A stretch of DNA of 64,000 nt from Butyricimonas synergistica DSM 23225 (lineage in GTDB: Bacteria > Bacteroidota > Bacteroidia > Bacteroidales > Marinifilaceae): positions 969,475 to 1,033,474 of the forward strand of contig NZ_KB903359.1 in assembly GCF_000379665.1 (NCBI RefSeq), in the 5' to 3' direction. The translations under genes and the position numbers were made by a program. Below the pieces are notes generated by a model. It did not search any database, was not told where the DNA came from, and saw only the letters and a list, made by a program, of their open reading frames with translations. Positions 7,303 through 64,000 of the stretch are shown here, in pieces (the first letter of the stretch is position 1; every line of letters begins with the position of its first letter).

Positions 7303-7338
7303 CATGGGTGTGTTTTGACACACACTCACACGAAAACC

Positions 7339-8342: not shown

Positions 8343-8726
8343 TCACAACACTAATTCCCGAAACAGTTTCTCGAACGTCATGTCAAGGTCGGCAGAGAAA
8401 CCGGGATGAGGACGTGAGGTCTGGATAGAAGTACTTCGGACGGCGGTAAGCCAGCGAAAACGCTCGGGAATTTCAAATTCGGCAATAGGACCGCCCTCTT
8501 TCACGCCGGAACAGATACGATCGAAAATACGCAGATTATTTTCTATCACCTCAACCTCCACCTCAGGGAAAAGCGTTTTCAACTTATCCCCGTGCAGGAC
8601 GTATTTCGCCTTGAGGTATTTTTTCCGTTTGGAAAACAAAATAATACCCACGTTCACAAATTCTTCCCGTTCCACCCGGGGCACTACCCGGATAACCGCA
8701 TATTCATACAAGTATTTCTCTGGCAT
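8343..8726 (-). CDS. DUF3037 protein, partner of the HipA-like kinase
   Basis: The 127-residue product matches the DUF3037 pattern: N-terminal YEYAVIRVVPRVEREEFVNVGIILFSKRKKYL, a central acidic stretch, and C-terminal FRWLTAVRSTSIQTSRPHPGF...FEKLFRELV. Its start lies inside the end of the HipA-like gene (23-base overlap), so the two are translated as a unit. This gene pair recurs in many bacteria. A helper or antitoxin role for DUF3037 is plausible but not established, and there is no obvious DNA-binding motif. Confidence 0.85.
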   Translation of the reverse strand: MPEKYLYEYAVIRVVPRVEREEFVNVGIILFSKRKKYLKAKYVLHGDKLKTLFPEVEVEVIENNLRIFDRICSGVKEGGPIAEFEIPERFRWLTAVRSTSIQTSRPHPGFSADLDMTFEKLFRELVL

Positions 8727-12630: not shown

Positions 12631-13413
12631 CTACTCCCGCACTTCGCCTTTGATGATGAATTGAATGACAGACTGGCGGGGATCATTACAATAAAGAGTG
12701 ATTTGTTTGCGTTGCTTGCCAACTCTTCCAGCGGAGTGGAAAACGACATCAAGCTGGGTAGCTTTTCCGGGAAGGATCACTCGTTGTCCGGGGACGACGG
12801 CAGTACAACCGCAGGTGGTTTCAATTTTGCGGATGAGGAGGTTTGTGCCGCCCGTATTTCTGATAGGGACAACGATAGGTACTTCTTCCCCTTCTTTGAT
12901 GATACCGAAATCGTATTCCAAAGAATCGACTTCTACCCGAGGGGTTTTTGCCTTCTCCTTTTCGCTCCATTCGTTGAAATTTTCTTTCACTTCCGACTCA
13001 ACAACAAGACCGTAAGAGTAATCGGCATTCCCGTCAACCATAAAACGGAACGCATTATAATATTCTCCTAGAAGCAACTCGTTCTCCGGCTGAAAGGTTA
13101 CAATCAAGGTATCGATTTTGCCGGGAGCGATGCTATACCCGCCCAAGCGCCATTCCTGAACAGTCCCTCCTATTTTCCGACAAGTCAATTCGGGATAATT
13201 ACCCAATCCTTCCAACCGGATGGCTTTATCCTTGGGATTATATACCATGACCGTATCCGTGTATTCCCGTCCGATATAAGTAGTCGTCCACGTGATATTC
13301 TCTTTATTGAACAACAGATCGCCCGCGGGATAGATAAATCCTTCCGGAACTTTATTCCCGGAGCAAGCACAAACCCCAAAAGACAATATATAAATCCAAC
13401 AAAAATTCTTCAT
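12631..13413 (-). CDS. DUF1573 lipoprotein
   Basis: The 260-residue product has lipoprotein signal MKNFCWIYILSFGVCACSG (Cys about residue 17). Two Ig-like/ASPM-type beta domains follow. The second is the classical DUF1573 segment: VEVDSLEYDFGIIKEGEEVPIVVPIRNTGGTNLLIRKIETTCGCTAVVPG..ILPGKATQLDVVF. The conserved TTCGCT motif is present. DUF1573 proteins are frequent in Bacteroidales envelopes with no defined function. It stands alone on the minus strand; a TAGCTTTG -7 box lies at 13448-13441. Confidence 0.9.
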   Translation of the reverse strand: MKNFCWIYILSFGVCACSGNKVPEGFIYPAGDLLFNKENITWTTTYIGREYTDTVMVYNPKDKAIRLEGLGNYPELTCRKIGGTVQEWRLGGYSIAPGKIDTLIVTFQPENELLLGEYYNAFRFMVDGNADYSYGLVVESEVKENFNEWSEKEKAKTPRVEVDSLEYDFGIIKEGEEVPIVVPIRNTGGTNLLIRKIETTCGCTAVVPGQRVILPGKATQLDVVFHSAGRVGKQRKQITLYCNDPRQSVIQFIIKGEVRE

Positions 13414-15041: not shown

Positions 15042-16415
15042 ATGATATACATAGGAGCACTTATATCCATTCAATTCATTGCCCTGACTGCCTACTGGCT
15101 GTTCAAGAAGTATCACGCGCAGGCGGTGTTGCTTTTCAGCGGTTTGGCGATGTTGACTTTGGCTTTATTGCTGGGGTTCGATATTCCCGAACTGAAGAAT
15201 GCCACTGGACTGAAAGAATTTGACTTGTTCAAAGTGATACAGGAGATTTTCAGCGAGAAGGGTGCGGGCGTGGGATTGATGATTATGACCATCGGAGGAT
15301 TCGTGGCGTACATGAAGCATATCAAGGCAAGCGATGCCCTGGTATATGTTTCCATGCAACCGCTGTCCATCTTCCGGAAGTACCCCTATCTCGCCGCATC
15401 ACTGGTGATACCGATCGGGCAATTGCTGTTTATCTGTACCCCCTCGGCAACAGGATTGGGACTACTGCTGGTAGCTTCCATTTACCCGGTTCTCGTGAGC
15501 CTGGGTGTCAGCAAACTGTCTGCCGTATCGGTCATCTCGGCGTGCACCGTATTCGACATGGGACCTGCCTCGGCAAATACCGCCCGGGCTTCGGAACTCG
15601 TGGGGATGAATAACGTGATGTACTTTATCGAGCACCAGATGCCGCTGACGATCCCCATGACAATACTGCTTATGGTGGTATATTATTTCAGCAACCGCTA
15701 TTACGACAAGAAAGACGCTTTGCACAAGCAACAGGAAGAATCCAAGCAGGAAGATTTCAAAGTGGACGTACCCTTGATTTACGCCATTCTTCCGGTATTG
15801 CCGTTAATCCTCCTGATCGTATTCTCGAAATACATCCAATTGTTCAATTTCTCGGTAGAACTTGACACGACGACAGCGATGTTCATGTCATTCTTCATCG
15901 CGATCATTTTCGAATTGATACGCCAGAGAAATCTCAAGAATGTATTTGCTTCCATCAAAACCTTCTGGGACGGGATGGGCAAAGTATTTGCCAGCGTGAT
16001 CACGTTGATCGTGGCTGCCGAAGTCTTCTCCAGAGGACTAATCAGCCTCGGCTTTATCGATTCGCTGGTGATGTTCTCGCAACACATCGGCTTCTCGGGT
16101 GCAGGGATAGCCATCCTGATGACATTGCTTATCTTCGCGGCGTCCATGCTGATGGGAAGCGGGAACGCATCGTTCTTTTCGTTCGGACCGCTGGTACCCT
16201 CCATCGCGACCAAAGTGGGATTGGACGGGGTAAACATGATATTACCGATGCAACTTGCTTCCAGCATGGGACGGGCGGCATCACCTATCGCCGGGGTTAT
16301 CATTGCCATATCGGAAATCGCCGGGGTATCGTCCTTCGACCTTGCCCGCCGGAACCTGATTCCGTTATCGGTCACGATGATAGCCATGCTGGCATATCAC
16401 TTCTTTATCGGTTAA
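15042..16415 (+). CDS. dcuC: DcuC-family C4-dicarboxylate/aspartate transporter
   Basis: The 457-residue inner-membrane protein has about 12 hydrophobic segments and DcuC-family features: FSEKGAGVGLMIMTIGGFVAYMKHIKASDALV, IPIGQLLFICTPSATGLGLLLVASIYPVLVSLG, and GSGNASFFSFGPLVP. The family carries anaerobic exchange or uptake of succinate, fumarate, malate and aspartate. Its gene precedes isoaspartyl dipeptidase by three bases, suggesting that it moves aspartate or the C4-acids made from it. There is no signal peptide, and the length is normal. Confidence 0.88.
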   Translation: MIYIGALISIQFIALTAYWLFKKYHAQAVLLFSGLAMLTLALLLGFDIPELKNATGLKEFDLFKVIQEIFSEKGAGVGLMIMTIGGFVAYMKHIKASDALVYVSMQPLSIFRKYPYLAASLVIPIGQLLFICTPSATGLGLLLVASIYPVLVSLGVSKLSAVSVISACTVFDMGPASANTARASELVGMNNVMYFIEHQMPLTIPMTILLMVVYYFSNRYYDKKDALHKQQEESKQEDFKVDVPLIYAILPVLPLILLIVFSKYIQLFNFSVELDTTTAMFMSFFIAIIFELIRQRNLKNVFASIKTFWDGMGKVFASVITLIVAAEVFSRGLISLGFIDSLVMFSQHIGFSGAGIAILMTLLIFAASMLMGSGNASFFSFGPLVPSIATKVGLDGVNMILPMQLASSMGRAASPIAGVIIAISEIAGVSSFDLARRNLIPLSVTMIAMLAYHFFIG

Positions 16416-18943: not shown

Positions 18944-20485
18944 ATGAATACGATGATAAGATATTTATTGACATTATTGATTCTCGTGCAAGTCGGCTCG
19001 CTTTGGGCACAACAGCCTGCCAAGGTTGCCAAAAAGTATTTCCCTGACCCCGAGATGGATATTCAGACGCCGTGGTTCCAGAAAGGAAGAAAGTTCACGA
19101 CTTACAACGAGATGATGGCATACATCCGCCAGCTCGTGAGCCAACACCCCGACAAAGCAACTTTGAATTTTATCGGCAAGACACAAGAGGGCAAAGAGAT
19201 TCCTGCCGTAACGATAGCCGGTAAGACCAGAAACACGAAAATGAGAGTACTGTTTCTCGGACGGGTACACGGCGACGAACCGGGTAGTACCGAGAGTATG
19301 CTCTACACGATGGAACGCCTGTTGAACGACCCGGACTTGGCTTACTTGTTGCAACGCCTGGAAATCACGATTATCCCGATGGTTAACATCGACGGGGGCA
19401 ATCGTCTGGAACGGGCTACCGCCAACACGTTAGACCTGAACCGGGATCAAAGCAAACTCGAAACACCGGAAGCCGTGGTTCTACGGACATTCTACAACAA
19501 TTACAGTCCGCAAGTCGTGATCGATTTCCACGAGTTCCAGCCCCTGCGTGCCGACTACACGCTAATCAGCACGGATAACATCACCAATTCGTTCGACGCC
19601 ATGTTCCTGTACACGGGTAACCTGAATGTACCGCAAGAATTGCGTGACCTTACCGCCAAGAAATTTGTAGGAAATGCCCGCGAGGCACTTGACCACAACG
19701 GACTGCGCCACCACGATTATTTCACCACCTCGAAGAAATTCGGCGAAGTGATCTTCAACGTGGGCGGTATCAATCCCCGTTCAACAGCAAACGCCTTCTC
19801 CCTAGGCAATTCTGTTGCCATATTAATGGAATTGCGAGGAGTCAAAATCGGTAAGACGTCCTTGAAACGCAGAGTGTACACCGCCTTCACGCTGGCAGAG
19901 TCTTACTTGAAAACGGCATACGACAACTTCGACGAGGTGATGAGCACCACAGCACAGGCAGCCCGCACGAAAAATGACATCGTGGTTACCAGCAAAGCCA
20001 AGACCGTGGACGACTATGTACTTCCGTTTATCAGCATGAACACGAACAAAATCGTGGAACTGGAAGTAAATGCCAACTTGTCGTTGGAATCCACTCCTAC
20101 CCTCACCCGGAAACGTCCGGCAGCTTATTATATTTCGTCTTCACACCCGGAGATTGCCAATAAACTCAAACAACTGGGAGTAACGGTAGAAACGTTGACC
20201 GCCCCCGTTACCGTCGAAGTGGAAGCCTACACGGTAGACTCGCACAAGGCAGAATACACGCTATTCGAGAAATTTTACCCCGTGAAGGTGAAAACAAGTG
20301 TTACCGCCAAACAAGTAACCTTCCCTGTCGGCTCGTTCGTGGTTCCCATGAACCAGAAGAACGGCAACGTGGCAGCCTCGGTTCTCGAACCGGAAGCCCC
20401 GAACGGTTTTATCAACTATCGGGTTTACGAAACAAAGCAAGGAGAGGAATTACCGGTCTACCGGAAAATGAACAGTGAAAAATAA
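18944..20485 (+). CDS. M14-family zinc carboxypeptidase, exported
   Basis: The 513-residue product has signal peptide MNTMIRYLLTLLILVQVGSLWAQ. The M14 domain spans about residues 45-330. Zinc ligands are in LGRVHGDEPGSTE (H..E) and VVIDFHEFQPL (His); NIDGGNRLERATANTLDLNRD holds the substrate-binding Asn-Arg region; and AILMELRG carries the catalytic Glu. The C-terminal ~180 residues are a beta-rich extension. It probably trims peptides in the periplasm or at the surface for import. It lies between two porin genes with short gaps. Confidence 0.88.
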   Translation: MNTMIRYLLTLLILVQVGSLWAQQPAKVAKKYFPDPEMDIQTPWFQKGRKFTTYNEMMAYIRQLVSQHPDKATLNFIGKTQEGKEIPAVTIAGKTRNTKMRVLFLGRVHGDEPGSTESMLYTMERLLNDPDLAYLLQRLEITIIPMVNIDGGNRLERATANTLDLNRDQSKLETPEAVVLRTFYNNYSPQVVIDFHEFQPLRADYTLISTDNITNSFDAMFLYTGNLNVPQELRDLTAKKFVGNAREALDHNGLRHHDYFTTSKKFGEVIFNVGGINPRSTANAFSLGNSVAILMELRGVKIGKTSLKRRVYTAFTLAESYLKTAYDNFDEVMSTTAQAARTKNDIVVTSKAKTVDDYVLPFISMNTNKIVELEVNANLSLESTPTLTRKRPAAYYISSSHPEIANKLKQLGVTVETLTAPVTVEVEAYTVDSHKAEYTLFEKFYPVKVKTSVTAKQVTFPVGSFVVPMNQKNGNVAASVLEPEAPNGFINYRVYETKQGEELPVYRKMNSEK

Positions 20486-43369: not shown

Positions 43370-44929
43370 ATGTTTAAAAATCATCCTAAAGGGTTGCTTA
43401 CAGCCGCCCTAAGTAACATGGGAGAACGTTTCGGCTACTACATCATGAATGCCGTGTTAGTGTTGTTCCTGTGTTCTAAATTTGGTCTGAGTGAAGCTGC
43501 CAGTGGTACTATTTACTCTTTCTTTTACGCTGGTATATACATTTTAAGCCTTATCGGTGGTCTTATCGCAGACCGCACACAAAACTACAAAGGAACCATC
43601 AAGACCGGTCTTGTAGTTATGGCAGCAGGATACATTATTCTTTCTATTCCTATCCTCGCTACATCGGCAAACACGACTTGGTTGTTGACTCTTACTTGTT
43701 TTGCCTTGTTCCTTATTGCATTCGGTAACGGTTTGTTCAAAGGTAACTTACAGGCAATCGTGGGTCAAATGTATGATAATTATGAAACGGAGGCAGCCAA
43801 AGAAGGTCCGGAAGCTCTTAAACTTGCAAAAAGCAAAAGAGATTCAGGTTTCCAGATCTTTTATGTATTCATCAACGTAGGTGGTTTGATTGCCCCGTTC
43901 ATTGCTCCTGTTTTACGCCAATGGTGGTTGGGTGTGAACGGCTTCTCTTACAATGCACAACTTCCGGCACTTTGCCACGAGTATATTAACAATGCTGCCG
44001 CTATGGCACCCGAAGCTCTTGCAAACTTGCAACAACTTATGACTGCCGCCGGGGGAACGATTACCGATTTGGCAACCTCTTGCTATCAATACCTGCAAAT
44101 TTTCAATGAAGGTATTCACTATTCATTCATTGCATCTGTTGCAGCCATGCTTATCTCTCTTGTTATTTTCTTTGTTTCTCAAAAAACTTTCCCAAATCCG
44201 GCAAAGAAAGCTGCAACACAGAGCATAGACTATACCCCTGAGGAGAAAGCTGCTATGGCTAAAGAGATTAAACAGAGAATGTACGCATTATTTGCCGTTT
44301 TAGGTATCGTTATATTCTTCTGGTTCTCATTCCATCAGAACGGTATGTCCCTTTCATTCTTTGCACGTGATTTCGTAGATTCTTCAGCTGTTGCACCTGA
44401 AGTATGGCAAGCAATCAACCCCTTCTTCGTGATTGTCCTTACCCCCATAATCATGGCAATCTTTGGATTCCTTGCAAGACGCGGTAAAGAAATTTCAACT
44501 CCGAGAAAGATCGCAATTGGTATGTTCATTGCGGGAATGGCATTCTTGTTCCTTGCTATTTTCTCAATGATGAAAGGTTATCCTTCTGCTGACTCATTCA
44601 AATTACTTCCCATTGCAGAGCAAATGGCAAGTAAGGCACACTGGTGGGTTCTTATTGTTACCTACTTCTTCCTGACAGTCGCAGAGTTGTTCATCTCGCC
44701 TCTTGGATTATCATTTGTATCAAAAGTTGCTCCCAAGAGTATGCTTGGTTTATGTCAAGGTCTATGGTTAGCAGCGACCGCCCTCGGTAACCTTCTACTT
44801 TGGATTGGTCCTCTTATGTACAACGCATGGCCGATCTGGCAGTGCTGGATGGTATTCTTGATCGTATGCCTTGTATCCATGGGCGTTATGCTTGGTATGG
44901 TAAAATGGCTTGAAAGAGTTACAAAATAA
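43370..44929 (+). CDS. POT/PTR-family proton-dependent peptide transporter
   Basis: The 519-residue inner-membrane protein has about 12-14 spans. The N-terminal POT signature is kept (SNMGERFGYYIMNAVLVLFL, the E-x-x-E-R-F-x-Y-Y type motif: here GERFGYY), followed by GGLIADRTQNYKGTIKTG and GNGLFKGNLQAIVGQMYD. The C-terminal half has FSFHQNGMSLSFFARDF and ELFISPLGLSFVSKVAPKSMLGLCQGLWLAATALGNLL. POT members bring in di- and tripeptides with protons. It is a stand-alone gene with its own promoter and terminator. Confidence 0.93.
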   Translation: MFKNHPKGLLTAALSNMGERFGYYIMNAVLVLFLCSKFGLSEAASGTIYSFFYAGIYILSLIGGLIADRTQNYKGTIKTGLVVMAAGYIILSIPILATSANTTWLLTLTCFALFLIAFGNGLFKGNLQAIVGQMYDNYETEAAKEGPEALKLAKSKRDSGFQIFYVFINVGGLIAPFIAPVLRQWWLGVNGFSYNAQLPALCHEYINNAAAMAPEALANLQQLMTAAGGTITDLATSCYQYLQIFNEGIHYSFIASVAAMLISLVIFFVSQKTFPNPAKKAATQSIDYTPEEKAAMAKEIKQRMYALFAVLGIVIFFWFSFHQNGMSLSFFARDFVDSSAVAPEVWQAINPFFVIVLTPIIMAIFGFLARRGKEISTPRKIAIGMFIAGMAFLFLAIFSMMKGYPSADSFKLLPIAEQMASKAHWWVLIVTYFFLTVAELFISPLGLSFVSKVAPKSMLGLCQGLWLAATALGNLLLWIGPLMYNAWPIWQCWMVFLIVCLVSMGVMLGMVKWLERVTK

Positions 44930-51931: not shown

Positions 51932-53485
51932 TTAAAAATTCGCAACACTCCCATATTTAAAATTCACCTCGAGTATTTCCCCAAAACCGGATATTTCTGT
52001 TACAAAAGACTTCTCATTCGCAACACTCCAGCTTTTAGACAAATCATAAAGTATTAATGAACCATTTTCCAAACCGATTCCCACCGTACTATTCGTTCGT
52101 CCCAACTTTCCATGATCCAACGACATGATTTTGTAATCAAACGCCTTATACAATTTCGGTTCCCCCAATCCTTTAGATTTACGTTCCACGTAGTAAAGAG
52201 AATTGGGTTCATTTTGTGCAGAATAAAGCACGTAAGATTTAATCATTCCCATGTAAGGATCGTTTAATATACAGAACTTACTATCTACACCCATATTAGC
52301 CGGACAAATAATATTCTCGTAAGTAATCGTAGCGGAAGGACTCGTACGCCCATTAAATTCAACAACAAACTCCAACGCCTCCAATCCTCCCGAAGGATTT
52401 TTCATGATACAGAAATAAGTATAATCTGTGTCCCAGGAATAAAAAGGTTTAATGAATTTAGATGTCACTATTTCGTATCCTTTCCAATCATTTACCCCAT
52501 CCTTTGCGGGAAAAGAAAGTATATCTCCCGCCCGATCACCAAAATATTGAGTATTCCAATCATAATCGGTATTCACAACTAGAAAGCGACCGTTCTTCTT
52601 ATCAAACAACATCGCCATTTTTGACTTATGCTGGCATAATGTCATTGATGAAACAATTAACTCTTCTCCCTCGAACTTCACGGGCAAATCACTAAAACGC
52701 CCCGTGTAGTAACCCTTACCATTCTTTCGCATGTAAAGTCGCCCGTCATCAGCTAATAAATAATCGACAAAACCGCAATATAAAGCATTTTTAAATCGTA
52801 TGCCGGAAGGTATTTCATCGCCTATCCATTCTTGATTCAACGACACGGTTTTAGCCAAACTCTTACCATCCATGGAAAAACATTTGGACGGATCGGCATC
52901 CAAATACATCACCTCCCCCACAATATTTGTCTTTTCTGTAGACCAATATTCCAACACGCCAAGTGGACTTATCGCCTCGATTTCATCCATCACGTTCATA
53001 TAAGGAGTATATATATATGACGGACTAGCAGGTTTCTCGTTCACCACATGTAAACGCACCTTTCCAACCTCCCTGTCCAACACGGTCCATGCTCGTTCAA
53101 AAGGTTCAAGCAACATAATAAAGAAGCTATACACATCAGCGTTATCAGCTGAATTACGTCTAATCATCAACGTTCCACTCGCTGTAGATTTCGATATATT
53201 GCATTCCCATTCCAATACCTTCTCTTGCGAAACAGATTTTCCGTCAATAAACCATTCGTACGATAAATCTTCCGGGTTGTCATATTCCACGTACGGAACA
53301 ATACGCAAGGTCTGTCCTTGAACAACCTCATAAGGTTGATTTTCCTTAAAAGCGTGTTCATCTTCGTCATTTATCAGAAGAACAGGCTTTTTCAGTTCTT
53401 TATAATCTGTATTCGTGTCATCCTTGAAACATGAACAACATAACGTAAAGAACAACACGAAGATTAATAATATATTCTTTCTCAT
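51932..53485 (-). CDS. PKD-like family lipoprotein (third SusC/D locus)
   Basis: The 517-residue product has lipoprotein signal MRKNILLIFVLFFTLCCSCFKDD. An N-terminal PKD/Ig-like domain (about 50-130) has VVQGQTLRIVPYVEYDNPEDLSYEWFIDGKSV, the characteristic YEWfIdG. The following ~350 residues are beta-propeller-like with repeated strands (YCGFVDYLLADDGRLYMRKNG, CQHKSKMAMLFDKKNGRFLVVNTDYDW). This is the 'PKD-like family lipoprotein' often found with SusC/D, DUF4843 and DUF5117-type metalloproteases. It is the last gene of the locus and is probably a surface substrate-binding component. Confidence 0.85.
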   Translation of the reverse strand: MRKNILLIFVLFFTLCCSCFKDDTNTDYKELKKPVLLINDEDEHAFKENQPYEVVQGQTLRIVPYVEYDNPEDLSYEWFIDGKSVSQEKVLEWECNISKSTASGTLMIRRNSADNADVYSFFIMLLEPFERAWTVLDREVGKVRLHVVNEKPASPSYIYTPYMNVMDEIEAISPLGVLEYWSTEKTNIVGEVMYLDADPSKCFSMDGKSLAKTVSLNQEWIGDEIPSGIRFKNALYCGFVDYLLADDGRLYMRKNGKGYYTGRFSDLPVKFEGEELIVSSMTLCQHKSKMAMLFDKKNGRFLVVNTDYDWNTQYFGDRAGDILSFPAKDGVNDWKGYEIVTSKFIKPFYSWDTDYTYFCIMKNPSGGLEALEFVVEFNGRTSPSATITYENIICPANMGVDSKFCILNDPYMGMIKSYVLYSAQNEPNSLYYVERKSKGLGEPKLYKAFDYKIMSLDHGKLGRTNSTVGIGLENGSLILYDLSKSWSVANEKSFVTEISGFGEILEVNFKYGSVANF

Positions 53486-53508: not shown

Positions 53509-54192
53509 CTAACCAATAACCGGTACCGTTACCACTCCTCCATTCTCGTCATAAAGAGGTTTTCCGAGAGATTCCAAATAATACTTGAATTGCCTAGCAT
53601 AATACAACTTCTCACTGGCTTCCAATGCCCCGTAATCGCCAGCATAAATGTGATTCACGAATTCTGTTAACTTAACTTCCGACCACGTTCCCAAATAAGA
53701 GTCTACAACCTCTTGTGACCACCATTCAGGTTTATCGATCTTGTGAGTATACGTGATTTTAATCTCCAAAGAATCTCGGGTCGAAGCCTCAAAACTTGCG
53801 TTACTGATAAGCCGCAAACAAAGATCTACACTTTGCTCTTTCAACCGCTCACTATCAATAAGCATCACTCGAAGCGTATCTTGATAAAAATCAGCTCGAA
53901 ACGGTTGTTCCAAAAGGACATCATATTCCCCAGCAACGGCAGTCGTTTTATCTGCTATAATCTCCCAAGCAACAGTCGCATTTTCCTCCAACTTCGCACC
54001 CACGTATTTCACCGGAATCAACACCTCGTGGCGATCACTTCCCTGACTATACATGAAAGAATAACTAAGCGTATTTTCCCCATAAGGAAATTGGATAAAT
54101 CTCGAATCAGTAAAGAATGAAATCTCATCTTCCTGGCAAGAAGTCCCGTAAAACATGAGAAATACAATAACAATATAAATACAATTCTTCAT
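53509..54192 (-). CDS. DUF4843 lipoprotein (third SusC/D locus)
   Basis: The start is taken at ATG 54192 (MKNCIYIVIVFLMFYGTSCQEDE), a good lipoprotein signal; the in-frame codons upstream run into the SusD gene. The product is 227 residues. The N-terminal half is DUF4843: ISFFTDSRFIQFPYGENTLSYSFMYSQGSDRHEVLIPVKYVGAKLEENATVAWEII, with DKTTAVAGEYDVLLEQPF. The C-terminal half (WWSQEVVDSYLGTWSEVKLTEFVNHIYAGDYGAL) is helical and Trp-rich. It recurs between SusD and PKD-like genes in Bacteroidales. Surface exposed, ligand unknown. Confidence 0.85.
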   Translation of the reverse strand: MKNCIYIVIVFLMFYGTSCQEDEISFFTDSRFIQFPYGENTLSYSFMYSQGSDRHEVLIPVKYVGAKLEENATVAWEIIADKTTAVAGEYDVLLEQPFRADFYQDTLRVMLIDSERLKEQSVDLCLRLISNASFEASTRDSLEIKITYTHKIDKPEWWSQEVVDSYLGTWSEVKLTEFVNHIYAGDYGALEASEKLYYARQFKYYLESLGKPLYDENGGVVTVPVIG

Positions 54193-54211
54193 AACATTCA
54201 CGTTTAAATTA

Positions 54212-55645
54212 TTAAATGGCACTTTCACTCGTGGGTTTGGGCAATACCAATTTCCCTTTCGCATCCACTTTCCCCTTAGAGGTATAGATTTTATTCAAGC
54301 GCTTGAACATAAAGAGTATTTGTCCTTCACTAATCAAATCTTTGCGAGCATCATTCACTAATTTATCCATCACCACACCAGCCGCTAAATCTACTTGCAA
54401 AGCTTTTCCACCTCGGGCTTTCCTTACCATGTTAAGCACCTGTACAGCATGCTCAACATCTTCAACATACAAATAACATTCGGCTGCAATATAACATATC
54501 TCACTCAAGCGGATGAGAGGAACGTATCCCGTGTACGCTTCTTTGCCCCGGTCTTCCATATATTTTACCACGATGTTATGATCAAGCAAATCCTCCCGCT
54601 TATCGTAATCATCGGCAGCTTCACCCGGGTCAAACAACGCGGGATCTTCCACGTAAAGCGTTGCCCGTTCGCCACTGGAATAATTGGCATATCCCTCAAC
54701 CATCTTCGAATAGTTCAAGCAAAACAATACCCCATCCATCATTTTAGGATCAGAAGCGATATTATTTCCTTCCGTCAAACGCAATGTACCATTCTCTACC
54801 AAATGGACAATTTCCAGGGCTTGTTTCATTGCCAAATCATATTGTCCCGCATACAAGTAAACTCGGGCAAGCAAACCAGTCACTGCATAATAATTCAAAC
54901 GGGTTCCGCGAAACGCATAAAACTTTCCCCAGTCAGGCATGGTTGACTTTGTCAAGCGCATTTCCGTATTCGTGATAAATGTCTTATTTCCTTGTAAAGT
55001 ATCAAAAGTCGCTAACAAATCTTTACTCATTTTCAAATCCTTGACAATCTTCTCTAATACTTCATTCGTAGGTATTGCTGGATTGAATATCATAGGATAT
55101 TGGGTCACGTAAGGTATGTAACTACCGGTCGCATCAAGGAGTGGAGCTTGCGCAAAAACCCTCAACATATCAAAATGTATAAAAGCTCGTAAAGCAAGAG
55201 CTTCTCCCATAAGTACATTCTTTTCCAACTGCCCGTTATCAAAAAATGTTGAATCCTGCTGTTCTATATGTTCTATCAAATTATTAGCTCGAGCTATTCC
55301 CCGGTAACCATTCTCCCAAATCGAACTACCAACCGACCTCACTTCCTTCGTATCATAATTAAAATCACGCATAGCGATAAATCCTTTATGCTCGTCAACA
55401 TTGTCTGTCAATGTATAAACACCAGCCCAAGCATCCATGGCACCCCACGAAAGATGACGTCCGTAAAGTTCTGGCTCTCCTATATTATAATATATACCGT
55501 TTAGCACAGAATAGAAACCTTTCGTGTTCTTATACATTTCATCTTCGGCAATATCCGTTTCCGGCTCCACTTCCAACCAGGCATTACAGGAAGCCATCCC
55601 AAATGCTATCACCAATAATCCTATTTTTCTGAATATATTCTTCAT
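54212..55645 (-). CDS. SusD/RagB-family lipoprotein (third locus)
   Basis: The 477-residue product has signal MKNIFRKIGLLVIAFGMASCNAWLEV with Cys about residue 20. It has SusD-type features: NAWLEVEPETDIAEDEMYKNTKGFYSVLNGIYYNIG, NVLMGEALALRAFIHFDMLRVFAQAP (the 'EA.aLRAf.hFdllR.f' helix) and LIRLSEICYIAAECYLYVEDVEHAVQVLNMVRKARGG. The gene follows the SusC stop by 17 bases. It is the lid of the third SusC/D pair. Confidence 0.93.
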   Translation of the reverse strand: MKNIFRKIGLLVIAFGMASCNAWLEVEPETDIAEDEMYKNTKGFYSVLNGIYYNIGEPELYGRHLSWGAMDAWAGVYTLTDNVDEHKGFIAMRDFNYDTKEVRSVGSSIWENGYRGIARANNLIEHIEQQDSTFFDNGQLEKNVLMGEALALRAFIHFDMLRVFAQAPLLDATGSYIPYVTQYPMIFNPAIPTNEVLEKIVKDLKMSKDLLATFDTLQGNKTFITNTEMRLTKSTMPDWGKFYAFRGTRLNYYAVTGLLARVYLYAGQYDLAMKQALEIVHLVENGTLRLTEGNNIASDPKMMDGVLFCLNYSKMVEGYANYSSGERATLYVEDPALFDPGEAADDYDKREDLLDHNIVVKYMEDRGKEAYTGYVPLIRLSEICYIAAECYLYVEDVEHAVQVLNMVRKARGGKALQVDLAAGVVMDKLVNDARKDLISEGQILFMFKRLNKIYTSKGKVDAKGKLVLPKPTSESAI

Positions 55646-55662: not shown

Positions 55663-58600
55663 TTAGAAGGATGCACTAAGGGTAAAATTAAACGCTCGGG
55701 CAAAAGGATACTGGGTTCCTTTCTCCATCTTGACTGTACTGATCGTGAACAAGTCTGAAGCATTCAATTGCAGTTTCAATCGACTTAATCGAATTTTTTC
55801 TACCAATTTTTTCGGGAATTCATACCCTAAAGAAATAGAAGACAACGACAACTTGTTATAATCCTGTACAAAACGAGAAGTCGGTAAAGTCGGTTCCTGC
55901 CAAGAATTCAAGCGTTTGAATTGTTTCACATCCCCAACTTCTTTCCAACGATCCCGCAACACCCGAACATCACAATTCCGGGTCAAATCAGCTCGTTCTA
56001 TCTTATCCAACAAGGTATTATTATAAATTTCACCACCAAATTCATACATAAAATAAGCATCCAACGTGAAACCCAAGTAATACAAATTAAAACCGAAAGA
56101 CCCGTTAAACATCGGTTCTGTATCTCCAATCACAACATTTTCACTTCCCAACCATCTATATCCAGTACTACCGTCTTGGTAACGATAATACTCCCTTCCG
56201 GTAGCAGGATCTATTCCTAAAGAATTCATCCCGTAAATAGAAGTCAACGAAGCACCCTCGTAATATTTCAACAAAGGTTTATCATTATTATAAGGATCAT
56301 TCACGAAATGTTCATTCACTCGCTCATTATACGTTTGCATGGAATTGGATATTTTGGTCAAACAGTTCTCATTATGCACGGCATTTACGAACACGTATAA
56401 TTGCAAATCCTTATTACTAATCAATTTACTCCTCACATTCAACTCAATACCTTTGTTTTCCACACAGCCGACATTTTCTTTATAGGAAGTGAATCCGGAA
56501 GAAGAAGGGATAAACATATCTGCTATCAAATCCTTCGTGTTCTTCTGGTAATAAATAAACTTAAGGTAAAAAGCCTCATGAAACAAAGATAATTCAGCAC
56601 CAATATCAAATATCTCGGTTTTTTCCCATTCCAAATTAGGATTTCCCATGTAATCCAACTTAGCGGCATGCCCCGTGGTATACCAAGCATCCGTTTCGAA
56701 AAAGAATCTGTTTTGTGCCGTATAAGAAGGAAAATTTACTTTTCCCGTCATCCCGTAAGAACCGCGTATTTTCAATTGTTGCAACCAAGGCGTATGTTCC
56801 TTGAAAAACGAATAATTATGGATATTCACCCCCAATCCCCCGGAAGCAAAAGGAGCGTATTTCTTCTTTGTCCCGAACTGAGAACTACCATCCAACCTCA
56901 TGGATACATCTGCTAAATATATATTATTATAAGAATAATTCAAGGTGAACAGAGCCCCAAACAAACGAACTTTATCGTATGCATTCGTCGGTTTTCCCCT
57001 CAACTCTTTAGCAAAATCAGGAGAAGAATACCCTCCTTCCGGAAAATCCACGTAATACAATCCTTTGTACTTTGAAATGGTCTCTTTTATATTTATTCCC
57101 GCTGCAAGATTGACATTATGCTTGTCAATTTGGTCGTTGTAATAAAGTAACCCGCTAAAATCATAACCGGAAGAAATACGTTCCGTGATACGTAGATCTC
57201 CCTTAATATCACGATTAAGGAAAAAAGTGGCTTCTGGATCTTGAAATTTTTCTGTTTCCTCTACTTTATAATTGAAGGCAATATTTGCTTTCAAATTTAA
57301 CTTAGGAGTTATATACCAACGTACGTCAAAATTATCATAAAACTCTTTGTAATTCGATCTGTCAAAACTAGAAAGAGTTGCATCATAAACCGGATTACGA
57401 TAGTTACCGCCTCCATGCCAATCTTTCATATCACTGGCCACCCGACCATTTTCATCAAGATAAGAATCATACGGATTCATTTTCACGATATCAGAATAAT
57501 TCCCGTAAGGAGATTCCTGCGAATTCATGCCATCATAAGTAGCATTATTACGGAAATGGAATTTATCCATCTGATAAGAAAGCGTGAAACCGAATCCCAT
57601 AGTTTCACGATAAGAATCTTTCATCACCCCATTATCACGGTCATACTTCAAATCCACCCCGTAACGCATATTTTTAACTCCACCTTCCAAATAAATATTA
57701 TGCTTGTGACTTAATGAATTACGCAAGGGCAATGCCATCCAATCCGTATTGATTCCTTTCTCAATATTCTGTAACTTCAGGTTATATTTCTTCTGCAAAT
57801 CTGAAAAACGAGTAGGATCATCACTTTCAAATAATCCGGCAGCAACCTCCGCTTCCAATTTCTGACGAGCATCCATCAAATTATAAAAAGAAAGGTCTGG
57901 CATACTCAATTTCAAATCGGCATTATAATTAACCACAAGTTCTCCCGGTTTCGGGGCTATCGTGGTGATAACAACCACTCCATTGGCAGCACGGCTTCCA
58001 TACATAGCTGTTGCCGCAGCATCTTTCAATAGATTAATGCTCTCAATTCTGTTCACGTCAAGATCGTATATCTTTGTTACAGAAACCTCATAGCCATCCA
58101 AAATAAAAGTAGGTAAATTAGGATTACTATTCAAAGATGTTTCCGATATATCCGTTTTATCCAATTCCGTAATACCGATACCAGACTGCCCTCTCACATA
58201 CATTTCGGGAAGTGCATTCGGATTGGAACCCATTGTCAAATTCTCCTTTATCCTAAACGAAGGATCAAACATCTGTATTCCTGCTATAATATTATTCGGT
58301 GACACTGTCTTCAATTGTTCTTTATCAATCGTGGTTACCGAACCAGTAAAAGATTTTTTCGAAATATTCGCGTACCCCGTCACAATCACTTCATCAACTT
58401 CCTGTGTATCCGGTTTCATCCGAATATTTAATTGCGTAAAATCATTTACCAAAACTTTTCCATCACGAATTATTTCGATTTCTTGGGTTTGCATACTGAT
58501 AAAACTAAATACTAGTGTTACATTCTTAGCCTTCACGTAATCTAGTTTAAATTTTCCATCAGCATCCGAAGCTGTCCCATGAGTTGATCCTTTTATTAAT

Positions 58601-59031
58601 ATCGTCACTCCAGGCAAAGCCTCCCCTTGTTCATCCACAACTACTCCCTGTATACTCAATCGTTCCACCTCAACTTCTTTCTTCGGGTTCTCTTTCAACA
58701 CAACAAGTTTATTTTGAAATTCATAAATCACATTTGTTTCTTTAAAACAAATATCCAATATTACCCGAAGTGACGCATTTTTTACATCCAAAGACACTTT
58801 AGGTAACGCCTCTATCAACTTATTATTATATAAGAAATCATAATCAGAATGGTTATCCAAATAATTAATAACCTCCTTTACTGGTGCTTTTTCAAATTTC
58901 ACGGAAAACTGTCGCTCGTTTCCACTTTGAGCAAACAAGTTTCCTGAACCATATAAAACTACCAAATTAAAGAATAGAAATATCCATCCTATCCTACAAT
59001 TTTGCAATATTCTATCACACAATTCTTTCAT
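55663..59031 (-). CDS. SusC/RagA-family TonB-dependent transporter with STN domain (third locus)
   Basis: The 1122-residue product has a signal segment (IGWIFLFFNLVVLYGSGNLFAQ). A secretin/TonB short N-terminal (STN) domain spans about 42-112 (FSVKFEKAPVKEVINYLDNHSDYDFLYNNKLIEALPKVSLDVKNASLRVILDICF). The carboxypeptidase-like domain spans about 125-205, then TonB-box DEVIVTGYAN, plug with INLLKDAAATAMYGSRAANGVVVITT, and a barrel ending FNFTLSASF. STN-containing SusCs usually signal to an anti-sigma/ECF sigma pair; none is visible here, so it may lie upstream beyond the window. The gene follows the two metalloproteases on the same strand. Confidence 0.95.
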   Translation of the reverse strand: MKELCDRILQNCRIGWIFLFFNLVVLYGSGNLFAQSGNERQFSVKFEKAPVKEVINYLDNHSDYDFLYNNKLIEALPKVSLDVKNASLRVILDICFKETNVIYEFQNKLVVLKENPKKEVEVERLSIQGVVVDEQGEALPGVTILIKGSTHGTASDADGKFKLDYVKAKNVTLVFSFISMQTQEIEIIRDGKVLVNDFTQLNIRMKPDTQEVDEVIVTGYANISKKSFTGSVTTIDKEQLKTVSPNNIIAGIQMFDPSFRIKENLTMGSNPNALPEMYVRGQSGIGITELDKTDISETSLNSNPNLPTFILDGYEVSVTKIYDLDVNRIESINLLKDAAATAMYGSRAANGVVVITTIAPKPGELVVNYNADLKLSMPDLSFYNLMDARQKLEAEVAAGLFESDDPTRFSDLQKKYNLKLQNIEKGINTDWMALPLRNSLSHKHNIYLEGGVKNMRYGVDLKYDRDNGVMKDSYRETMGFGFTLSYQMDKFHFRNNATYDGMNSQESPYGNYSDIVKMNPYDSYLDENGRVASDMKDWHGGGNYRNPVYDATLSSFDRSNYKEFYDNFDVRWYITPKLNLKANIAFNYKVEETEKFQDPEATFFLNRDIKGDLRITERISSGYDFSGLLYYNDQIDKHNVNLAAGINIKETISKYKGLYYVDFPEGGYSSPDFAKELRGKPTNAYDKVRLFGALFTLNYSYNNIYLADVSMRLDGSSQFGTKKKYAPFASGGLGVNIHNYSFFKEHTPWLQQLKIRGSYGMTGKVNFPSYTAQNRFFFETDAWYTTGHAAKLDYMGNPNLEWEKTEIFDIGAELSLFHEAFYLKFIYYQKNTKDLIADMFIPSSSGFTSYKENVGCVENKGIELNVRSKLISNKDLQLYVFVNAVHNENCLTKISNSMQTYNERVNEHFVNDPYNNDKPLLKYYEGASLTSIYGMNSLGIDPATGREYYRYQDGSTGYRWLGSENVVIGDTEPMFNGSFGFNLYYLGFTLDAYFMYEFGGEIYNNTLLDKIERADLTRNCDVRVLRDRWKEVGDVKQFKRLNSWQEPTLPTSRFVQDYNKLSLSSISLGYEFPKKLVEKIRLSRLKLQLNASDLFTISTVKMEKGTQYPFARAFNFTLSASF

Positions 59032-59109: not shown

Positions 59110-61689
59110 TCAATCTAACAATTTACTAATAGAATCATACATAAAGCGATAATGCTTACGCACATTCGGAGAACCTGAATTCAAGCATTTCTCAACCAAC
59201 ACACGCATATCCTTCAAAATATCATAATACACGTGACGGGTTGACTGTATATTAAACACAGGCCAAGTTTTCAACTCCCCGTAATTTCCAGCCATAATGT
59301 CCTCGTTTTTATAACCGTCAATCAATCTCTCCTCACAAAGAGCTAATTCTTTTGCATCCGTAACGTCTACAATTTTCACATCATTATATAACATTTCTGC
59401 AAGAGCATTAGACGCACCACCGGAACTCTTGCCAGAACGATCAACCATCTGCGAACTCTTCATCATTGTTCTGAAGAAATAACTCTGGTAATACAATTCT
59501 TCCTCGGAAATTTCCTCTCCACGACGAGTTTTCTCGAACAATTTTCGATACAATTTATAGATATAATCCGTGTGAGTTATATACTCACCTTCTACCTGCT
59601 CGTACGCAAACAACTTGCCAGCCATCACATTAAGCAACAACATCACGTAATCCTTATGCATCTCCATATTTGAACGCATTAAAGGCATTTTAGTTTCCAA
59701 ATCCGGACGATCCAACCAAGAGGGACGCAATAATTGTGTAAAAAACAAGTCAAGAGCCTCTTGTTGACGCTTTTTATCTATGAAGCGGTACATCGGAACG
59801 GGATCTCCGGCCTTCTTCTCGTAAGTGAAAATTCCATAACAATTCATCGCCACTTGAGTGATCATCTTCTTGTATTGGCGTTGCAACATCAAATAAATGG
59901 AACCACGAAAATCAAATTCGGGATCTTCTTCATCCGTAATCCATTTATCAAAATTCTGTACCATGAATTTCAAATTCTCCATCCCATACTTGAAAGCTTT
60001 TAAATCATCATTTCCCACGTCATTAGCTCCACAATCCGGACAATCTTTCGCATATTCATAACGATATTTAGGATCACCTACCTTCTCGGAAACCCATTTC
60101 TCAACAACCTTAAATTCCTCTTCTGGTGTATTTGCCCCGGGAATAGGTGCATACAAACATTTCACCACGTGATAATCATATTCTCCCACGCCCACCGGAG
60201 TAAGGCGAATCCCTTTTGAAACGGCATCCACGGGTGCAACCGTATTATAAGGAGCCAAATCAAGCAAAGAAGGAGAAGTACCATATTTTTGCGTGAAAGA
60301 AGCAGAACGCAATGAATCTATCGAGAAGGCAGCAGAAGAAGTCAGATTATATGTCATACCGAAACATTCTGTCCCCGCCAACCAAGCGAAATAATTCTTT
60401 ATATCTTCCTTCAAACGATCATCTGAAAGATAACGTTTTCTCACTGACGGATCGGCATGTGCTGTATTAAGGAATACGTTATACGGGATATTCACCACAT
60501 AATTATGCGTCACCAGTATATTGGTATTCAATATCTCTCCCGACCGTGGATCGGCATACGTACGAACCGTTATACCACTGGCAAGTGAAGGCACGTAACG
60601 TATGCAATTATAACTAAAATTATCTGGATCGAAAGAAGAATCACACCTCGGGTAATCCCTTACCTGAATGACATTTTTATACCCGATAGCGTCAAAAGTC
60701 TTATTCCACTCCAACAACCCTTCCGTGATTCCTGCACGTACAAGTGGACTTAACAAAGTATCCAAATAAAATACGATCGGTTTTTTAGGCTCTACTTTCT
60801 CACCTGCTCTAAAAGCGGACTCATTTTGCGGTTCCAACCTCCATCTTAAAGCATAATACACAGGAGCCAAAATCTCGCCATTCCCACGATAATTCCATTT
60901 TCCCAACACTTGTAAAGGCAAACGGTAATCTGCCAAACGAGGCTTCATCTGAACTTCAGGCAACAAAGCCAATGTACGAGTCACCACAGCAGTCGTGTAA
61001 CGATTGTAAATATTCACTTTACTATTATACGTCAAACGACTCTGAACGGAAACATTATTCTCAAAAGCTTTCACATCCTCCAAAACGGATAAGTCGTCCA
61101 CCAATCGATAATTAACACCTTTCAACATCAGTTTTGATTCAGAACGAGGATCAATCGCCGAAATCAAACGCTCACTGCCCGTGAAGAATTTAGTCATATC
61201 AAAAACAACTGCCGTGCTATCAGGCGAATAAGCCTTAATTTCAAACGATGCCATGATAGCCCCTGTGTTGCTTCTCTCTATAGCCCGGGCAATATTAATA
61301 TCGCCTCCTCCGGCTATCGATTGATTTCTATCTCGACGCAATTGCACGTGTTTACCTATTTTACTGAAATACACGCGCAAAGGAATATAAGCGTTCTTCC
61401 CCACGTAACAATCCGTGTGGTCGCTTATCTCGGAAACGACTGAAGCCAACATCATATCTTTCTTCAGTAATTCTAAAGGCAATTCGACAAACAATTTTCC
61501 ATCTACAAGGTGCAATGTCATCAATCCTTGCACCTGTTTCATCTTTTTGCCTTTCAAAAGTTTTTCATACTCCGATGCAGCTCTCTGCACAGAATTTCCT
61601 TCGATGTTTTTTTCCTTCCTCTTATCCGCTCCAGCCAAAGAAACCGAAAGACAGAGAAGCAAAACCATATACATTAATTTGTTCATCAT
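59110..61689 (-). CDS. DUF5117/DUF4953 metalloprotease paralogue lacking zinc ligands (probable pseudoprotease)
   Basis: The 859-residue product has signal peptide MMNKLMYMVLLLCLSVSLAGA. It keeps the full family order: DUF5118-like segment (about 35-90, YEKLLKGKKMKQVQGLMTLHLVDGKLFVELP), DUF5117 (about 95-290) and the DUF4953 catalytic-type domain. Where the paralogue upstream has HEVGH and a third His six residues on, this one has Leu437-Ala-Gly-Thr-Glu441 and Tyr447. All three zinc His and the catalytic Glu are gone, yet flanking blocks (FSIDSLRSASFTQKYGT) remain. Reading frame and length are intact, arguing for a kept non-catalytic role. Its gene lies 15 bases after the active paralogue. 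Confidence 0.9.
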   Translation of the reverse strand: MMNKLMYMVLLLCLSVSLAGADKRKEKNIEGNSVQRAASEYEKLLKGKKMKQVQGLMTLHLVDGKLFVELPLELLKKDMMLASVVSEISDHTDCYVGKNAYIPLRVYFSKIGKHVQLRRDRNQSIAGGGDINIARAIERSNTGAIMASFEIKAYSPDSTAVVFDMTKFFTGSERLISAIDPRSESKLMLKGVNYRLVDDLSVLEDVKAFENNVSVQSRLTYNSKVNIYNRYTTAVVTRTLALLPEVQMKPRLADYRLPLQVLGKWNYRGNGEILAPVYYALRWRLEPQNESAFRAGEKVEPKKPIVFYLDTLLSPLVRAGITEGLLEWNKTFDAIGYKNVIQVRDYPRCDSSFDPDNFSYNCIRYVPSLASGITVRTYADPRSGEILNTNILVTHNYVVNIPYNVFLNTAHADPSVRKRYLSDDRLKEDIKNYFAWLAGTECFGMTYNLTSSAAFSIDSLRSASFTQKYGTSPSLLDLAPYNTVAPVDAVSKGIRLTPVGVGEYDYHVVKCLYAPIPGANTPEEEFKVVEKWVSEKVGDPKYRYEYAKDCPDCGANDVGNDDLKAFKYGMENLKFMVQNFDKWITDEEDPEFDFRGSIYLMLQRQYKKMITQVAMNCYGIFTYEKKAGDPVPMYRFIDKKRQQEALDLFFTQLLRPSWLDRPDLETKMPLMRSNMEMHKDYVMLLLNVMAGKLFAYEQVEGEYITHTDYIYKLYRKLFEKTRRGEEISEEELYYQSYFFRTMMKSSQMVDRSGKSSGGASNALAEMLYNDVKIVDVTDAKELALCEERLIDGYKNEDIMAGNYGELKTWPVFNIQSTRHVYYDILKDMRVLVEKCLNSGSPNVRKHYRFMYDSISKLLD

Positions 61690-61704
61690 ATCTAATTCTT
61701 ATTT

Positions 61705-64000
61705 CTATCGCAATAATCCGTCAATTCTATGCAACAACAATTGATAATGATCCCGTGTCGCTTTCGATCCGGTATTTTTCATCCGGTTTACTAACTCTCT
61801 TGCCTCCTTTATTTTCGCATAATACAAATGAAATCTTGGTGTTAAAGACTCTGCAACACCGCGGAAAAAACCGAATCCCATGTAATCCTCTTGGCTAATT
61901 GCCTCCAAAAAACGCTCAAATTTCATACTCTCGGCTACCATATTCGAGCATACTTCATCCTGTTCACGAATCCGTCTTTGCCAATCATATTCATTCCTAT
62001 TCAACACGGGTAAATCATTTTCTACGCTAGACAAAGAAGTAATTCCTTGTGCATTTTTCTCTTTCTTCTCCAATCCCGATATCAAAAACATCATGTCAAG
62101 GTAAGCAATCTGATTGGATCTCTCTGCATCCGTCAAATCTTTACCCGCGCGAGTTGATGCAAAAACAGTGTTAAATGCATCTTGTTGATGTTCTTCAATA
62201 GTATAAGCATTTTTTTCCGGACTTACCAACTTCGTGAAAGAAGCTCTATCTGCCATCACCAAACTCAATATCATACGTTGCATTTTCACAGCCATATTTC
62301 CCATCAACGGCAACTCCTTAATCAATTTCGGGTTATTTAGCCATTCCAAGTCATTCAATTGTTCACACAGGAATTTTTGTGCTCTTCGTTGATAATCAGC
62401 TTCCACGAAACTATAAGCAGGACGAGGGTCTCCAGCGTAACGTTCATTCAAGTAAACTCCACCTTTCACATTGTACACGTGATAAAGATACATAAAGTAT
62501 TGTTGTAAAATCTGCTTGTAAATCATTTCACGGAAAGACATATCCGGATCTTCATCAGCCACCCAATCATTCATATTCTCCATGAGATATTTCAAATTCT
62601 TCACCCCATACTCGGAAGCCTTCACCAAATCATCACCCAAATCTTCTGACTGTGCCGATGGATCCCAAACAGTAAATATCTGCTGTTTCCCGTAACGATA
62701 AACCGGGTCATCTGCTTTCTCTGCCACCCAACTATCCAGAATTTTCTTCTCATCCTCTATAGTTTTCGCCCCAGGAATAGGAGAATACAACCACTTTATA
62801 GCAAATAAATCTTGTAAACCAAGACGAGGAGGAGTCATGCTTACACCCCGTTCAGCATCACCGGGTTGTGCCACGTGATTGAAACGAGCGTAATCCATAA
62901 TAGAATACGTAGTTCCGTATTTCTGGGTAAAAGAAGGAGAACGTAAAGAATCAACAGGAATGGCAGCAGAAGCACACATATTATGCATCAAAGAAAGACA
63001 ATGCCCTACCTCGTGTGCAAGTACATATCGAATCGACTCATACATAATATCATCCGAAAAACGAGTGGTCCGTACCCTAGGGTCTGCAGGAGCTGTCTGT
63101 GTAAAACGCCACCGCGTAAGTAATTTTATTACATCATGATAAACCAAAACAGAAGCGTTCACGATTTCACCAGAGCGAGGATCTATCCACGAGGGGCCCA
63201 TCGCATTCATGATACTGATCGGTTGATATCGCAAACAAGAATATTTCAAATTATCGGGATCAAACTCTGGGTCATTCTCCGGAAAATCTACCGCTTTCAT
63301 CACGTTTTTCAAACCGATCTTTTCGAAAGCCTCATTCCACTGCTCCACTGCCTCATGAATCGGAGCTCTCCATTTTTCCGGGAAATCGCTATCCACATAA
63401 AAAACAATTTGTTTCTTCGGTTCCACCAACTCACCGCGTTTCCATCTCTCCATGTCAGAAGGCTCCACGTTCCAACGACGAGCATAATATTCAGGCATTG
63501 TTCCTCGATTATCGTTTCCACTAAATCTAGCTTTCCCCATAACAAACACATTCATGCGGGGATCTGCCAAACGAGGACGCATTGGCTTCTCGGGCAACAA
63601 CAAAAAAGAACGGGTTACTAATGCAGTGAAAGCATTTTTATTCTCAACCTTCACAGGCATATTCCCGATCTGTCCCGAAACATCCACTTTATACGTCAAA
63701 TAACTCTTCACGCTAAAATTATCCTCGAAAGACTTGACATCACCCAAGTGACTCATATCTTTTTGGAAAGAAACCGACCGACTAAATGGCTTTGTCGACA
63801 TCCGACTATACGGGTCAAACGGATCTATATCCTCAATATGAGTCATAAAGAGAGAGGTCGCATCAAACACAACTGCCGTACTATCAGTATTATAAGCCTC
63901 AATCTTAAAAGTCTTGAAAACACTACCGATAGTTGATTTTTTCACGGCTTTGGCGATATCATCTTCACCTTCCGCTGCCGTGTAAAGTGAATTCACCATA
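61705..64000 (-). CDS. Zinc-dependent metalloprotease DUF5117/DUF4953, 5' end outside window
   Basis: The frame is open to the window edge; comparison with the paralogue shows that the N-terminal ~130 residues are missing, so the Met at 63999 is internal. DUF5117 part: TIGSVFKTFKIEAYNTDSTAVVFDATSLF. The catalytic domain keeps VLAHEVGHCLSLMHNMCASAAIPVDSLRS, an HExxHxxxxxH zinc site (HEVGH coded at 63001-63015), then SPSFTQKYGTTYSIMDYARFNHVAQPGD with the Met-turn-like SIMDY. It is an exported peptidase of the metzincin type, likely at the surface or in the periplasm, feeding the SusC/D system. It begins the visible minus-strand run of six genes. Confidence 0.93.
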   Translation of the reverse strand, partial: MVNSLYTAAEGEDDIAKAVKKSTIGSVFKTFKIEAYNTDSTAVVFDATSLFMTHIEDIDPFDPYSRMSTKPFSRSVSFQKDMSHLGDVKSFEDNFSVKSYLTYKVDVSGQIGNMPVKVENKNAFTALVTRSFLLLPEKPMRPRLADPRMNVFVMGKARFSGNDNRGTMPEYYARRWNVEPSDMERWKRGELVEPKKQIVFYVDSDFPEKWRAPIHEAVEQWNEAFEKIGLKNVMKAVDFPENDPEFDPDNLKYSCLRYQPISIMNAMGPSWIDPRSGEIVNASVLVYHDVIKLLTRWRFTQTAPADPRVRTTRFSDDIMYESIRYVLAHEVGHCLSLMHNMCASAAIPVDSLRSPSFTQKYGTTYSIMDYARFNHVAQPGDAERGVSMTPPRLGLQDLFAIKWLYSPIPGAKTIEDEKKILDSWVAEKADDPVYRYGKQQIFTVWDPSAQSEDLGDDLVKASEYGVKNLKYLMENMNDWVADEDPDMSFREMIYKQILQQYFMYLYHVYNVKGGVYLNERYAGDPRPAYSFVEADYQRRAQKFLCEQLNDLEWLNNPKLIKELPLMGNMAVKMQRMILSLVMADRASFTKLVSPEKNAYTIEEHQQDAFNTVFASTRAGKDLTDAERSNQIAYLDMMFLISGLEKKEKNAQGITSLSSVENDLPVLNRNEYDWQRRIREQDEVCSNMVAESMKFERFLEAISQEDYMGFGFFRGVAESLTPRFHLYYAKIKEARELVNRMKNTGSKATRDHYQLLLHRIDGLLR

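Follow-up and report, generated by a model that had tools for sequence, protein, structure and literature searches.

A DUF4953 pseudoprotease encoded beside its active paralogue in Butyricimonas synergistica and its putative role as a partner subunit

Among M16B peptidases, several enzymes are made up of two homologues, only one of which carries the zinc motif, as described for the mitochondrial MPP alpha/beta pair and for the bacterial SPH2681/SPH2682, TTHA1264/TTHA1265 and AlbF/AlbE pairs in the passages of two papers considered here (PMC12731061, PMC11266112). According to the same passages, in which SusC/D is not mentioned, the inactive subunit of MPP is needed for function and the TTHA1265 gene adjoins that of TTHA1264, a two-gene operon being mentioned (PMC12731061, PMC11266112). 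The M16B precedent shows that a split into an active and an inactive chain can end in a two-chain enzyme (PMC12731061, PMC11266112). The likeness to the gene pair analysed here concerns the arrangement only, namely an active beside an inactive homologous chain, since M16 peptidases carry an HxxEH motif and form another Pfam family, to which the present pair does not belong. The M16 heterodimer has been shown, whereas a heterodimer of the DUF4953 pair is putative.

Karilysin, myroilysin and the serralysins are the solved metzincins among the closest known systems. ADAMs, metzincins of family M12, are transmembrane proteins with further domains, and we know of no ADAM pseudoprotease encoded in a tandem operon with an active paralogue. 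The pseudoprotease ADAMs listed in Table 2 of one source have a degenerate HExGHxxGxxHD motif and keep the Met of the Met-turn (PMC11266112). On the side of nutrient import, a likeness is offered by the SusC/D utilisomes of Bacteroidetes, in which proteins act together with SusC/D import, and which the part of the source considered describes for glycan uptake (PMC7618045), whereas the DUF4953 pairs are proteases without a clear lipobox. In the open-access literature, no paper was found that names DUF4953 or DUF5117, and neither dead DUF4953 members nor such active/dead pairs were found there among the matches listed, preprints excluded. Within that literature, the first-pass annotation was right to call dead members of this family undescribed, and the novelty of the pairs is likely. 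Utilisome components are surface lipoproteins.

The window, that is, the whole stretch of 64,000 nucleotides that was analysed, ends within the active gene of such a pair, and the features of the locus are as follows.

61705..64000, minus strand: active met-zincin protease (ORF, Pfam), N-terminal part beyond the window end; full gene 886 aa
62983..63015, minus strand: zinc motif of the active copy, intact (HEVGHCLSLMH)
61690..61704, minus strand: intergenic gap of 15 nt between the active and dead genes
59110..61689, minus strand: pseudoprotease DUF5118-DUF5117-DUF4953 without zinc site, 859 aa (ORF, Pfam, BLASTP, model)
60349..60384, minus strand: eroded motif WLAGTECFGMTY, residues 436-447 of the dead copy (alignments)
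55663..59031, minus strand: SusC-like TonB-dependent transporter (Pfam, TIGR04056)
54212..55645, minus strand: SusD-like protein (Pfam SusD-like_3, SusD_RagB)
53509..54264, minus strand: DUF4843 protein, a recurrent neighbour (Pfam)
51932..53485, minus strand: PKD_2 protein, a recurrent neighbour (Pfam)

The complete active gene was located in the host genome (G000:C1:1031179-1033839, 886 aa), with FecR and ECF sigma genes upstream of it, past the window end. The gene order in the window is active, dead, SusC, SusD, DUF4843 and PKD_2, and the placement of the tandem ahead of SusC/D, proposed earlier, is correct for this locus, while elsewhere the pair mostly lies behind SusC/D. The 15-nt gap is consistent with the active and dead genes being carried on a common transcript. 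The same window also encodes a POT-family transporter (43370-44929, plus strand), an M14 zinc carboxypeptidase (18944-20485, plus strand) and a DcuC-type carrier (15042-16415, plus strand), as well as two frames of 260 codons each on the same strand (8704-9486 and 12631-13413, minus strand). A tRNA scan of the window found none.

Both frames of the pair were verified on the minus strand, with HEVGHxxxxxH in the upstream protein and, downstream, a motif devoid of zinc ligands and general base, as had been read from the sequence initially. The two proteins share 36% identity across 772 aligned positions (BLASTP, E 2e-148) and both match DUF5117 and the DUF4953 'Met-zincin' domain in Pfam, the dead copy with E 9e-54 for DUF4953; against the PF16313 (DUF4953) cut-off of 24.2 bits, the dead copy scores 183.2 and the active copy 322 bits. 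The active copy carries HEVGHCLSLMHN, and AWLAGTECFGMTYN of the dead copy is aligned opposite this motif, so that H, E, H and H of the four catalytic columns are replaced by W, L, E and Y in the MAFFT alignment. A one-residue insertion leaves the register of the eroded motif uncertain by one, but neither register contains a His or puts a Glu at the general-base place. The metzincin zinc site is HExxHxxGxxH/D, with a Met-turn below the zinc and a Tyr two residues further; most DUF4953 copies have this Gly, whereas HEVGHCLSLMH of the window's active copy has Ser instead. The dead copy lacks this zinc site and also the Met-turn with its Tyr, having Leu, Leu and Pro at M490, Y492 and R494, and Gly, Ile and Val at the edge-strand positions N387, A388 and G390 (numbering of the window's active protein). 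These losses imply that catalysis has probably been lost in the dead copies.

A signal peptide was recognised by eye in the window's dead copy, and its predicted model (pLDDT 85.1, pTM 0.86) contains a helix at residues 423-442 that spans the first part of the eroded motif. The metzincin-like region of this model comprises residues 257-515, where the catalytic domain gives a structural match to metzincins that carries no claim of activity; the model of the active copy, built on its 764-aa part (pLDDT 85.8), likewise matches metzincins structurally. Foldseek by itself returned no PDB match at E <= 0.001, and a sequence search for a solved relative of the DUF4953 Met-zincin family found none.

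The distribution of dead copies was surveyed first of all in the host genome (4.77 Mb), which gave 54 DUF4953 matches, 53 of them in frames of at least 600 aa and the remaining one at a contig edge. DUF4953 is thus expanded in this genome, given that five congeners had 13-45 matches and another seven genomes from the same bacterial family had 0-17. HExxHxxxxxH is present in 40 of the 53 host copies and missing in 13, and the motif-less copies amount to 13/19 among later tandem copies, 0/16 among first copies and 0/18 among single ones (Fisher p=3e-8). Since 13 of 53 copies are motif-less and 13/13 of these lie directly behind an intact copy, the pattern of loss in this genome is more than chance. 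The sample was widened with the match lists of ten relatives and the stretches round their tandem clusters (28 further dead copies, 41 in total in L031-L090), and with 20 further stretches selected after 393 genomes of the order had been searched (eight new dead copies, duplicates dropped). Across 246 unique copies, a non-random sample apart from the host genome, 53 are motif-less, 51 of them immediately following an intact copy and 2 immediately preceding one; by position, motif-less copies make up 51/75 of the later, 2/62 of the first and 0/109 of the single copies, some of the single copies lying in short stretches or near contig ends. Thus, the linkage of dead copies to an active paralogue, on which the earlier proposal of a partner had been made to depend, was observed in 53/53 cases.

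With A for active and D for dead, the loci are arranged as AD (44), AAD (3), ADA (2), ADADA (1), DA (2), AA (5) and AAA (5). The dead copy comes first in L107 (Hoylesella nanceiensis, 5416-7956) and L179 (6209-8815), whereas the other 50 loci with a dead copy have the reverse order, and the five genes of L064:2894-16154 (plus strand) alternate as active-dead-active-dead-active. Ten tandem loci have no motif-less copy, three of them (L054, L070, L180) holding a half-eroded one, which indicates that tandem copies need not divide labour. On named genome contigs, the best 80 of 578 relatives gave 74 one-copy loci, all intact, and six two-copy loci, and a scan of these contigs with the dead protein as the single query returned no relative. 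In a class-wide search of 395 genomes, which yielded short stretches only, all 29 returned loci outside the host genome carry the motif.

The history of the losses was followed in unrooted trees built without the motif columns, in which changes were counted where starred branches force them. The host-genome tree (53 rows, mixture model) has five forced state changes, and seven are forced in the wider trees (FastTree, 219 rows; quick IQ-TREE, 165 rows), a number that falls to six when L054 and L070, both half-eroded, are scored as dead; the wider trees used simpler models without mixture and came with long-branch warnings, and these points, together with the lack of a root, limit this count of losses. 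A single ancient dead clade is ruled out by the five forced changes in the host tree and the seven in the wider ones. The motif thus appears to have been lost six or seven times independently in the DUF4953 family, including five times in the host genome; to our knowledge, no such repeated loss of the active site has been reported in M16.

Two of the dead clades are large. Dead clade II contains 18 dead copies from several genera of one family and stands next to its 18 active partners (support 80). Dead clade III contains 26 dead copies from several families and splits into a group of 18, a group of seven and, by itself at the end of a long branch, the window copy; its active partners form one group with the window's active copy and the same seven (support 89) and another with the same 18 plus one (starred). 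In the 165-row tree, the dead copies of clade III are thus one clade, while their active partners are two groups meeting at a weak node. Trees of dead copies and partners mirror each other across genomes in clade III (r 0.94, 21 pairs) and in clade II (r 0.83, 16 pairs), with 0/2000 permutations as high in each case. Within the host genome, mirroring was found for clade III (r 0.967, six pairs, 2/720 permutations), which is cleaner than in the cross-genome sets, since permutation leaves shared species history in the latter, and no significant mirroring was found for the four pairs of clade II (r 0.23, 12/24 permutations).

As regards selection, codon models of five dead orthologue sets gave omega values of 0.063, 0.081, 0.098, 0.078 and 0.050, compared with 0.069, 0.046, 0.086, 0.078 and 0.039 for the active partners in the same order. 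Pairwise NG86 values, computable for 19/28 orthologue pairs, were 0.05-0.16 for dead copies and 0.02-0.15 for partners; many pairs were saturated, YN00 having no value for many of them, and restricting the comparison to the five pairs of dS < 1 gave ranges of 0.05-0.16 for dead copies and 0.02-0.09 for partners. The orthologous sets thus combine lost residues, open frames and low omega, as is expected of a pseudoenzyme maintained by selection. These figures cover orthologue sets elsewhere, because the window's dead copy has no orthologue of at least 55% identity among those compared; its frame is open over 859 codons, even though 5.4% of single-base changes would make a stop, and this open frame on a long branch is the only direct sign of its maintenance. 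The purifying selection postulated at the outset was therefore found for dead orthologues elsewhere (omega 0.05-0.10), the window copy's own omega lying outside this measure, and neither scattered frameshifts nor relaxed selection emerged, nearly all dead copies being long open frames. At the protein level, dead copies diverged more than their partners in 323/325 and 150/153 comparisons, a pattern that would also fit relaxed constraint or changing ligand binding.

The residues lost and kept by the dead copies were examined in the 76 columns conserved at 93% or more in the 193 motif-bearing copies. For ten of these columns, conservation among the 53 dead copies is under 15%, namely the three His, F274, N387, A388, G390, Y492, R494 and E574. 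Retention is 5/53 for N387 and 2/53 each for A388 and G390, whereas the 72 conserved columns outside the motif, seven cleft columns included, have a median retention of 83%, and W343 and Y527 are retained in 53/53. Y492 lies two residues past the Met of SIMDYAR, presumably placed like the Tyr of astacins and serralysins. N387-G390 belong to the strand (373-379 in the dead-copy model) ahead of the active-site helix, a strand which we take to be where metzincins pair with the substrate peptide and which is among the most eroded parts of the dead copies.

Cleft erosion is close to all-or-none: of the seven cleft columns other than the motif, none is lost in 178/193 motif-bearing copies and one or two in 12, whereas at least five are lost in 53/53 motif-less copies. 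The only copies of intermediate erosion are L054:5789-8404, L070:8438-11053 and L180:6773-9274, which have an intact motif with 4 to 6 of the seven columns changed, two of the three being changed at the Met-turn Tyr and Arg. Their positions match those of dead copies in homologous clusters, half-eroded L054/L070 corresponding to dead L038/L060/L077 and half-eroded L180 to dead L107/L179; at another matching position, L044/L052/L078 are intact and L047/L053 dead. From these three copies, it seems that erosion of the cleft can precede that of the zinc site, and the retention of F274 by dead group VI (L047, L053) shows that there is no fixed order.

Taken together, these observations make it very probable that the dead copies lack catalysis and are maintained by selection as companions of the active copy. 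For the protein encoded at 59110-61689, the best explanation, to which we give about an even chance, is a pseudoprotease kept as a dedicated putative partner subunit of the upstream active met-zincin. The active enzyme would act as a homo-oligomer; after tandem duplication, both paralogues would assemble together, giving mixed oligomers with a spare catalytic site, and the loss of one site could then occur repeatedly. One copy, nearly always the downstream one, would lose substrate cleft and zinc ligands while keeping its fold, since it would serve to complete the active subunit or to steer it, and the pair would work in the periplasm on peptides or proteins imported by the SusC/D of the same operon. 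A role common to the dead copy and its partner would explain why none of the dead copies sampled is alone, why they arise repeatedly beside an active one and why they conserve the same positions outside the cleft. The M16-like heterodimer proposed by the first-pass annotation would fit this picture. Points against a subunit are the unmirrored host pairs of clade II, the faster divergence of dead copies, the division of the active partners of clade III into two groups, the lack of a window-copy orthologue at 55% identity or above for a rate test, the four loci without SusC/D in the stretch examined, the ten tandems without a motif-less copy, the two dead-first pairs (L107, L179) and the damaged copies L076 and L039.

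The genomic neighbourhood could also be read differently, with the dead copy as a peptide-binding or escort protein that is not bound to the protease and holds substrate, either periplasmically or on the cell surface, before passing it on to the protease or to SusC/D. SusC/D lies beside 48/52 loci with a dead copy (four show none in the stretch examined), DUF4843 and PKD_2 proteins occur in 28/52 each, and the faster divergence of the dead copies could reflect shifting ligand specificity. Other genes adjoining pairs encode an ABC transporter with ABC_transp_aux (L040:6285-9524), a GH92 glycosidase (L037:7116-9443) and DPP-IV-like S9 peptidases (L032:14121-16445, L031:3617-5875). However, the strand for pairing with peptides is changed in nearly all dead copies, clade III has no dead-specific conserved site, and an escort role leaves unexplained that every dead copy sampled adjoins an active one. 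With N-termini judged by eye and a simple lipobox pattern, 0/44 dead copies match, compared with 3/44 active partners (those of the window, L047 and L053). The LLAC at residues 7-10 of the window's active copy was judged too near the N-terminus to be a lipobox, while those of the L047 partner (ILSC ending at residue 17) and the L053 partner (LLAC at 26), unlike other pairs, may be real. With no dead copy matching this pattern, surface delivery looks less likely than a periplasmic partner, and the pair is probably periplasmic; the earlier idea of a surface peptide-binding protein feeding SusC/D thus lost ground, and an escort role is considered unlikely.

A further reading assigns the dead copy the role of a chaperone, inhibitor or self-protection subunit that restrains the active protease until the substrate is reached. 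The same linkage and selection data agree with it, and the close spacing of the genes (-22 to 156 nt in 44 active/dead pairs, median about 10 nt) would suit assembly during co-synthesis. However, none of the 109 single active copies has such a partner in the stretch examined, although some of these stretches are short or reach a contig end; a dead partner is therefore not a general requirement of the enzyme, and this role appears improbable.

It could also be supposed that a different catalytic activity or metal site has been acquired by the motif-less copies, given that the general base E452 is retained in 21/53 of them and that three (L038, L060, L047) retain HExxH, their third ligand position being occupied by Asn or Asp, Asp being a zinc ligand in some metzincins. 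However, these three have also lost the Met-turn Tyr and Arg, no newly conserved residue was found in 94 columns of dead clade III, and the six dead-specific conserved residues of clade II lie away from the old cleft His positions. The absence of newly conserved residues from clade III is easier to reconcile with a structural role than with a newly gained activity, which is accordingly disfavoured and seems very unlikely. Slow, unselected decay of redundant duplicates, to which divergence above that of the partners and a few damaged copies might point (L076:8885-11353 without the N-terminal signal end; L039:7671-9731 without the stretch after the motif), is scarcely credible and unsupported for the orthologous sets in view of 53 frames of at least 600 aa, the low omega, dead clades that span genera (II) or families (III), and the window's open frame. 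Short DUF4953 pieces at G004:C4:225757-226138, one with internal stop codons, are probably a pseudogene.

Returning to the partner subunit, a broader proposal can be put forward tentatively, at rather less than even confidence: a two-chain metzincin may have evolved six or seven times in Bacteroidales, with a pseudoprotease subunit replacing half of an ancestral homo-oligomer and setting what the periplasmic peptidase of a SusC/D peptide-import operon accepts, in which case the 13 dead copies would equip the host genome with a diverse repertoire of import-coupled peptidases. M16 offers known examples of active/inactive protease pairs, and the same outcome seems to have been reached repeatedly in the DUF4953 family. 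Because intact, half-eroded and dead copies occur at matching cluster positions, the route from enzyme to pseudoenzyme becomes directly testable, and the pairs give a lead to the function of a large family that is tied to SusC/D and has 53 copies in one genome.
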